Notes under the pieces: model-generated
Told to the model about the DNA's origin: nothing
Database searches by the model: none
What the model saw: the letters and a program-made list of their open reading frames with translations, nothing else
Shown here: in pieces, positions 53,276 through 54,319 of the stretch
How positions within the stretch are numbered: position 1 is the stretch's first letter
Layout of the letters: every line of letters starts with the position of its first letter
Origin: Sorghum bicolor
Lineage: Eukaryota; Streptophyta; Magnoliopsida; Poales; Poaceae
Assembly: GCF_000003195.3 (NCBI RefSeq)
Contig: NC_012878.2
Location: forward strand, 19,754,641-19,818,640
Direction: 5' to 3'
DNA: 64,000 bases
Position numbers and translations under genes: made by a program

Positions 53276-54319
53276 CTAGTCGCTATGATCACTGTCCATG
53301 CCAGAGCCATCCTCATCCTCGTCACCACTAGCAGCTGCTCCTATCTCGGGATCCGCATCCATCTCGTCCTCAGAGTCTAGCTCCGCTGCTCCAGGCAGGT
53401 GGTGAGGGTGGAGCTGGTTATGCAGCTGGTTGATCTCCTCATGCAAGTTCTCATTGTACTCCTCGGCATTAGCTAGCTGCTGCTCTAGCTCCAGCTGTCG
53501 GGCCCTCAAAGTGTCCTCCTCGTGCCAGGCTTCATTCCTCTGTCCAAGCACATGGACTAGCATGCGCTCGCAGTTCCTGTGAGCAGTGGTCACCCTGTCC
53601 TTCTGCTCCCGCACTGCAAGCAGGTCCTGACTCAGCTCACTGTTCTTCTGGACTGCCTGGTCTCTCTCTCTGGTCACACGAGCCAACTCTGCCTGTAGCC
53701 TCTCAACCTCAGAGTCAAACTCACGCTGCAACTGACGCTTCTCATCCTGGACGGTGAGAAGAGACCCGGACAAGCGACCCAAACAACGCTCCAGGCCTCC
53801 ATAGGTCTTCATCAACGCGTACATGGCACTCATAACTGCACTGTCACTGTGCTGGTCCTCATCCGCACTCCTCTCTAGAGCATTCACCTCGGACTGATCC
53901 CACACCGAAGTGTAAGGGTCACCCCGGGGAAACACCCCAGCGAAGGCGTGGGCCAGCTCCTGTGGAAACCTCTCCATGAGGTCCCTCAAAACTGCGAAAG
54001 CTGCCCTGCTGGCACCGTGGAAAGGCGTGACACCTCGGGACTCGTACACCCAACCGCCCCAAGCAGGGTCTCCTCCACTGGTAGGGACAACTGCCTCGAT
54101 CCCCACTAGGGTCTCGTCACCAAGCGGCTCCTTATCCCAATAGTAGCGAGGCTCCCTTCCTTCGGGATACCCCATCGAACTAAGCACCCTCCAAAGCAAG
54201 GTGGGCATCCCAAACTCCTCTAGGAACTTGCTCTTATGTCGCGAGCTCCTAGCTGCCAACGGACGGCGAGGGGCCCGCCCACCAGTGGACTTGCGAGCGG
54301 TGAGCCTAGTGCGTGCCAT
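53276..54319 (-). CDS. Histone-H3-tail-mimic protein of A2 (347 aa, intact)
   Basis: The first ATG (54319-54317) is followed by GCA, so removal of Met would expose Ala as in histone H3. Residues 2-27 agree with H3 positions 1-26 at 17 sites: A-R-T, [11 protein letters not shown], L-A and R. H3 K4, K14 and K23 equivalents are Arg, K18 is Arg and K27 is His; K9 with its A-R-K-S context is kept. Beyond residue 30 there is no histone fold. Residues 31-150 form an unrecognised domain (W-G-G-W, [9 protein letters not shown]). About 165-305 is a strong coiled coil, and 313-347 is very acidic. It lies between leader and gag, preceded by TTTGCAG, a likely splice acceptor. The ORF is conserved in A1 at equal length. 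Function is unknown; a chromatin-interacting role is inferred only. Confidence 0.9.
   Translation of the reverse strand: [347 protein letters not shown]

Follow-up and report, generated by a model that had tools for sequence, protein, structure and literature searches.

A histone H3-like N-terminal tail on the ORF0 protein of a Sorghum bicolor LTR retrotransposon

Introduction

Some LTR retrotransposons of grasses carry an extra reading frame, ORF0, and such elements can be abundant. In the accessible text of PMC3485330, the ORF0 of Retrosat2 is described as present in grasses only and of unknown origin and function, and the accessible part of PMC11728184 reports that the 5' aORFs of maize and sorghum Tekay elements weakly resemble a DRBM protein. 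The stretch of Sorghum bicolor DNA analyzed here (64,000 nucleotides, referred to as the window) holds one such frame, whose product begins like the tail of histone H3. The locus thus raises the question of whether this likeness is an accident, a remnant of a captured H3 gene, or a maintained feature with a role in the life of the element.

Results

Element A2 carries an intact ORF0

The window contains a full-length LTR retrotransposon of 14.5 kb, A2, whose termini read TGTAACA...TGTTACA, as well as a second copy, A1. Their features are the following:

44542..44546, strand not applicable: target-site duplication CCGAC, left of A2, read from the sequence
44547..59063, minus strand: full-length LTR retrotransposon A2, 5' end of the element at 59063 (LTR pair by self-BLAST)
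44547..48470, minus strand: 3' LTR of A2 (self-BLAST; the pair begins one base earlier)
48466..52269, minus strand: zinc knuckle, protease, RT, RNase H, integrase and C-terminal chromodomain-like stretch of A2
52276..52959, minus strand: gag (Retrotrans_gag) of A2 (Pfam)
53276..54319, minus strand: ORF0 of A2, 347 aa, intact (ATG at 54319, stop 53278-53276)
53279..53410, minus strand: acidic disordered C-terminus of ORF0, 16 D/E and no K/R in 44 residues (model and residue counts)
53411..53839, minus strand: predicted long helix, probably a coiled coil, residues 161-303 (structure model)
53969..54208, minus strand: predicted dsRBD-fold domain, residues 38-117
54239..54316, minus strand: H3-like tail of A2 ORF0, H3 residues 1-26, best match 1-21 (phmmer, alignment, profile)
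54320..55144, minus strand: leader of A2, from 5' LTR to ORF0, 824 nt as cut
55145..59063, minus strand: 5' LTR of A2, 98.75% identity with the 3' LTR (the BLAST pair begins one base earlier)
59064..59068, strand not applicable: target-site duplication CCGAC, right of A2, read from the sequence
4348..5391, plus strand: ORF0 of copy A1, H3-like tail with K4, two later in-frame stops
10182..14070, plus strand: 3' LTR of A1 (its 5' LTR is cut off by the window start)

The 347-codon frame that an earlier, sequence-only note had placed between LTR and gag was recovered as described. A2 displays the gypsy order protease-RT-RNase H-integrase, and its LTRs, of 3.92 kb each, exceed the 3 kb used to delimit Retrosat2/RIRE3/Tekay-like chromoviruses. 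Its C-terminal stretch matched Chromo at 20.8 bits (cutoff 25.1), and by our own residue reading against the accessible text of PMC3350952 it contains W45, V43, RxTRxR and TWExE. In A2, gag and the long pol frame are in phase, with a stop between them at 52270-52278 on the minus strand; the pol region of A1 is split into several listed frames.

The N-terminus of ORF0 matches the H3 tail in register

As the earlier note had stated, the protein encoded from the first ATG of A2 ORF0 agrees with H3 in register at 17 of its 26 N-terminal residues; 200,000 shuffles of those residues gave at most 12 matches. When the whole ORF0 was compared to PDB sequences with phmmer, H3 was the top match (E 2.9e-4), residue 1 aligning on residue 1. 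A profile built from 11 long-form tails (see below) reached H3 at E 7e-13, and the 60 listed of the 142 sequences matched were all H3 chains. The tail is of the canonical H3 type, is predicted by the structure model to be disordered, and lies in a basic region (11 K/R within residues 2-37).

Downstream of the tail the likeness ends, in agreement with the view that ORF0 is not a histone: among Pfam matches up to E 1 there was no histone family, nor was there a dsrm match, and instead of a histone fold the structure model presents a dsRBD fold followed by the long helix. The middle domain is predicted as alpha-beta-beta-beta-alpha, the dsRBD order, and the model of a divergent relative, P0020, shows the same element order with one extra short helix. 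The best structural matches of the predicted domain were the DRB7.2:DRB4 and DCL4/DRB4 structures. In dsRBDs, the usual RNA-binding lysines lie at the start of helix 2 (KKxAK). Alignment columns 100-104 of the ORF0 family, in our own placement of the motif, mostly read V/F, E/H, G, A, E/S; these lysines are missing, and the domain would more likely bind a protein partner.

The tail is shared by ORF0 relatives

Three protein searches yielded 41, 110 and 4 matches, that is 144 different proteins in addition to the query (145 in all); the search that returned 4, which was aimed at further N-termini, added none to the set. One relative had a listed organism (P0042, Miscanthus floridulus). Many relatives are incomplete or have an internal Met (MPTLLW) as their first residue, and these are uninformative on the tail. 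The middle domain is present in 87 proteins. Of these, 11, including the query, have at least 30 residues ahead of it, and 10 of these long forms, again with the query, carry the H3-like tail, always exactly 37 residues from tail start to domain. The exception, P0140, has an unrelated start and its domain is joined at profile position 23; from its sequence it is taken as a fused frame. The prospect raised in the earlier note, that elements with the same domain would show unrelated N-termini, was thus not borne out.

Another 15 proteins begin with the tail and have no middle domain. This short type (P0026-P0038, P0040, P0041) lacks the whole dsRBD domain and keeps the tail, the coil and the acidic end. 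Together with A1, A2 and nine long relatives, they provide 26 tails, selected by the pattern K9, S/A10, A/V15 and P16. A looser scan over the first 50 residues of all 145 proteins found a best H3 match of 5/21 in the other 120, as compared to 12/21 in the weakest tail, indicating that the pattern hid no counter-example.

The closest tails to H3, those of P0093 and P0130, match it at 19/21 positions and differ at K14 and K18 only. K9, P16 and L20 are present in all 26 tails; A1, A7, S10 and G13 in 25; T6 and G12 in 24, as is R26; R2 and K4 in 23; and T3 and R8 in 22, with positions Q5 and T11 being variable. K14 is replaced by R in 24 tails (K in one, C in one), K18 by H or R in 25, and K23 by R in 22, with K in none, although several of these losses may be single old events and are thus not independent. 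Within positions 1-26 the only lysines are K4 (23 tails), K9 (26) and K14 (1). We note that P0106, which has D at position 1, keeps K14 and LATRAPR, with a second half nearer to H3, yet starts MD and has A at 10.

The tail is better conserved than the spacer and the dsRBD, keeping in mind that related copies are not independent of one another. Mean identity between the 10 long forms was 0.73 for the tail, 0.54 for the spacer and 0.55 for the dsRBD, tail identity exceeding dsRBD identity in 40 of 45 pairs; dsRBD identity among tail-bearing relatives fell as low as 0.30. Comparisons to short forms gave 0.73 for the tail and 0.58 for the rest with P0001, and 0.65 and 0.44 with P0012. Over its best 61 residues, however, the coil is as well conserved as the tail (0.77-0.80 and 0.76-0.81 in four pairs of P0001 with short forms). 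In a tree of 65 domain sequences, of which 9 of 62 inner forks were firmly supported, tails were found in four of the five larger branches by our own grouping; in the branch of P0010, P0011, P0055 and P0019, N-termini were not seen in the sequences at hand. The tail is thus conserved too widely for an accident to be favored.

There were no ORF0 relatives among the viral contigs searched. Seven loci in bacterial metagenome bins (L001-L007) match over the tail only; L006 proved on inspection to be an H3 gene, and all seven presumably represent eukaryotic contamination.

Start codon and possible splicing

In both A1 and A2 the ATG of the tail is the first in-frame ATG past an upstream stop, and their leaders hold 23 and 25 ATGs. 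In nine of the 15 short-form database proteins, an in-frame Met lies 12 codons ahead of the tail and, if used, would make the tail internal. In these the tail Met is preceded by LLQ. The A2 leader contains donor-like GTAAGT sites and, adjoining the ORF0 ATG, an acceptor-like GCAG. LLQ in those short forms and GCAG before both ATGs in the window would fit a splice acceptor, and splicing there would expose the tail. The gag start, at 52959 on the minus strand, also lies directly after GCAG (GTATGCAGATGGTG), as for ORF0, and it is possible that the leader is alternatively spliced to ORF0 or to gag.

Selection on ORF0 within the host genome

The Sorghum bicolor genome (709 Mb, 846 contigs) was searched for ORF0, copies being ranked by likeness to the query. 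At least 117 full-length copies, each spanning at least residues 1-346, were found (117 of 3322 candidates were scored), 16 of which list a stop by our own count; the approximately 100 best-ranked copies without a listed stop suggest recent amplification. Selection was analyzed on 74 distinct copies; these came from 80 loci, A1 and A2 among them, and 10 of the copies have one to three stops. Two further degenerate copies (L112, L114) read LATR, one step nearer to H3. We also considered whether a P0010-type ORF0 forms a second family in this genome, and rejected this since the best of 126 scored matches reached only 57%.

Residues 23-347 of the 74 copies gave a per-site nonsynonymous/synonymous variant ratio of 0.22. 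A1 and A2 differ over the whole of ORF0 by 18 nonsynonymous and 28 synonymous changes (ratio 0.19), and in the tail by three nonsynonymous and no synonymous changes. On these values purifying selection appears to act on ORF0 overall. For the entire tail the ratio is 0.62, higher than for the rest of the protein, and the tail divides into a core with 0.18 (H3 positions 1-3 and 5-13) and a second part with 1.18 (positions 4 and 14-21), a division that was chosen after the data were seen. Core and second half are distinct (p 0.001), but the core is not significantly below the rest of the protein (p 0.13; for positions 7-13, p 0.05). These ratios drop codons more than one base from the commonest codon, and R2P and T6K were thus not counted.

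In the 74 copies, located by an anchor outside the tail, positions 7-13 invariably read ARKSTGG, and position 4 is R in 72. An initial view that the core is free of any change, drawn from the first 49 copies, was overturned by R2P, T3S, L5P and T6K, each of which occurs once among the 74. The K9-side core of the tail fits constraint and its second half does not; positions 4 and 14-21 look relaxed in young host copies. The test suggested in the earlier note, for purifying selection on the tail across family copies, thus gives a mixed outcome within the young host copies. The concern that the H3-like part might be confined to the two copies of the window is removed by the number of host copies and by the 24 relatives among the 26 tails.

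Origin of the tail

Capture from a host H3 gene, which the earlier note had thought plausible, partly because the codons seemed close to those of H3, remains plausible because the H3 states Q5 and Q19 are kept in some members. The closeness of the codons did not hold up. An H3 search of the host genome found eight intronless matches, each over 98 residues, and three genes that have an intron and include the N-terminus. The best codon identity of ORF0, with an intron-bearing gene, was 9 of 18 same-residue codons where 5.7 were expected (p 0.055), and the other seven comparisons gave p values from 0.08 to 0.39. Likeness in synonymous codons thus does not exceed chance, and recent capture was rejected as a conclusion from codons. 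With synonymous sites near chance, the origin event was not recent; and as the residues persist while the codons do not, selection on the tail is likely. If derived from H3, the tail would be old, its residues having outlived its codons; if convergent, it would have been built by selection. Both origins point to a function.

In all three intron-bearing genes (L103, L105, L107), similarity to the first coding exon stops after K23 and is followed by GT, near where the ORF0 match to H3 fades, although the end of the latter is not sharp, given the frequency of R26. In an intron-bearing H3 gene (L094, L103; G000:C10:1719837-1720234), the first-exon frame is open into the intron (226 aa listed).

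Discussion

We lean towards the explanation that A2 is a Retrosat2/RIRE3/Tekay-like chromovirus and that its accessory protein, ORF0, starts with a maintained copy of the H3 tail. As to its action, our reading of the sequences tips, if only slightly, towards a K9-side histone mimic acting on host enzymes or readers of the H3 tail. This is favored because K9 and its neighbors persist, the acetyl-lysines are lost and K4 is dispensable in the host family; indeed, mimicry of the K4 side as the main function is disfavored in the host genome by the replacement of K4 by R. From the tail, its conservation and the predicted folds, we infer the following course. Met would be cleaved before Ala, freeing the disordered H3-like end, and the coiled coil would multiply the exposed tail. 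The tail would then serve as a substrate decoy or a docking tether for host proteins that write or read H3 on its A7-R8-K9-S10 side; with K14, K18 and K23 gone, acetylation at those sites would not take place, and the dsRBD-fold domain would recruit a protein partner rather than RNA.

Two forms of action can be envisaged for such a mimic. The K9 side could occupy H3K9 methyltransferases or K9me readers and, together with the DRB-like domain, weaken silencing of the element. K9 in every tail and every host copy compared, the DRB4-containing structures matched by the predicted dsRBD and the proposal, in the accessible text of PMC11728184, that RNA silencing is modulated by Tekay 5' aORFs whose fold is DRBM-like are in line with such an anti-silencing decoy; the absence of the helix 2 lysines speaks against it, and we regard it as a tentative possibility. 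The tail could otherwise act by binding host H3 readers and so bring the nucleoprotein of the element to chromatin, which we judge unlikely. Here it is relevant that the chromodomain-like stretch of A2 lacks part of the H3K9me cage by our own reading, that plant group II chromodomains are described as having an unknown ligand in the accessible text of PMC12786077 and PMC3350952, and that sunflower Tekay groups with and without the 5' aORF differ in insertion according to that of PMC11728184. The same incomplete aromatic cage disfavors the A2 chromodomain itself as a reader of K9-methylated ORF0, which agrees with how PMC12786077 and PMC3350952 describe group II chromodomains.

Alternatively, the tail could be an H3-derived, basic and disordered patch kept only for its charge, for nucleic-acid binding or nuclear import. 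The 11 K/R of the first 37 residues, the K to R changes at 14, 18 and 23 and the relaxed positions 4 and 14-21 would suit this, but the non-basic T6, A7, S10, G12, G13, P16 and L20 are conserved like the basic residues, and K9 is replaced in no tail, neither among the 26 nor among the 74; this explanation appears rather doubtful to us. A non-functional remnant of recent capture, or plain chance, is very improbable: the codon identity slightly above expectation with one intron-bearing H3 gene is outweighed by the shuffle and profile statistics, by conservation of the tail across relatives whose dsRBDs have diverged widely, and by synonymous sites that are too close to chance for a recent event.

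Returning to the mimic that we prefer, a fuller scenario, which we put forward speculatively, is that the tail goes back to the first coding exon of an H3.3-type gene that was captured by chromoviruses of grasses. It would have become an N-terminal H3 mimic that is dead to acetylation but competent for K9 methylation. With a coiled coil to display it and a DRB-like domain attached, the chromatin and small-RNA arms of silencing would be met in one protein. A maintained H3 tail leads to a testable hypothesis, namely that a plant retrotransposon uses mimicry to engage the machinery of H3K9 silencing, and the retention of K9 with loss of the acetyl-lysines amounts to a natural experiment on H3-tail recognition.

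ORF0 and its DRBM resemblance are already known, and within the searched open-licence literature the H3 tail appears undescribed: in agreement with the earlier note, titles and abstract starts gave no report of an H3 tail in a retrotransposon, and the word histone is absent from the accessible main text of PMC3485330 and PMC11728184, as well as from that of PMC7264820. A2 resembles Retrosat2, RIRE3, RIRE8, Tekay and Sb7 in having an extra ORF between the 5' LTR and gag, and Retrosat2 also in its long LTRs; for the maize and sorghum proteins, a long helix towards the C-terminus and a weak resemblance to DRBM are reported, which parallels the folds predicted for ORF0 (PMC3485330, PMC11728184, accessible text). 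A2 may be identical with Sorsat2 or Sb7.

With the plant DRB proteins DRB7.2, DRB4 and HYL1, the ORF0 domain is approximately 15% identical; unlike them, ORF0 is without the lysines at the start of helix 2 and is fused to an H3 tail and a long helix. With histone H3 and CENH3 the comparison is confined to the N-terminal 21-26 residues of canonical H3 type, without a histone fold; CENH3 tails differ.

Viral H3-tail mimics include influenza NS1 (ARSK), adenovirus VII and SARS-CoV-2 ORF8 (ARKS), as reviewed in PMC10208167, in whose accessible text 'plant' and 'transpos' do not occur. They and ORF0 both match the modified part of the H3 tail. If our reading is correct, a plant retrotransposon would join viruses in the use of histone-tail mimicry, and with a much longer match than theirs: the viral mimics described there are motifs of four or five residues, C-terminal in the case of NS1, whereas that of ORF0 covers approximately 21 residues, at the N-terminus and in H3 register.
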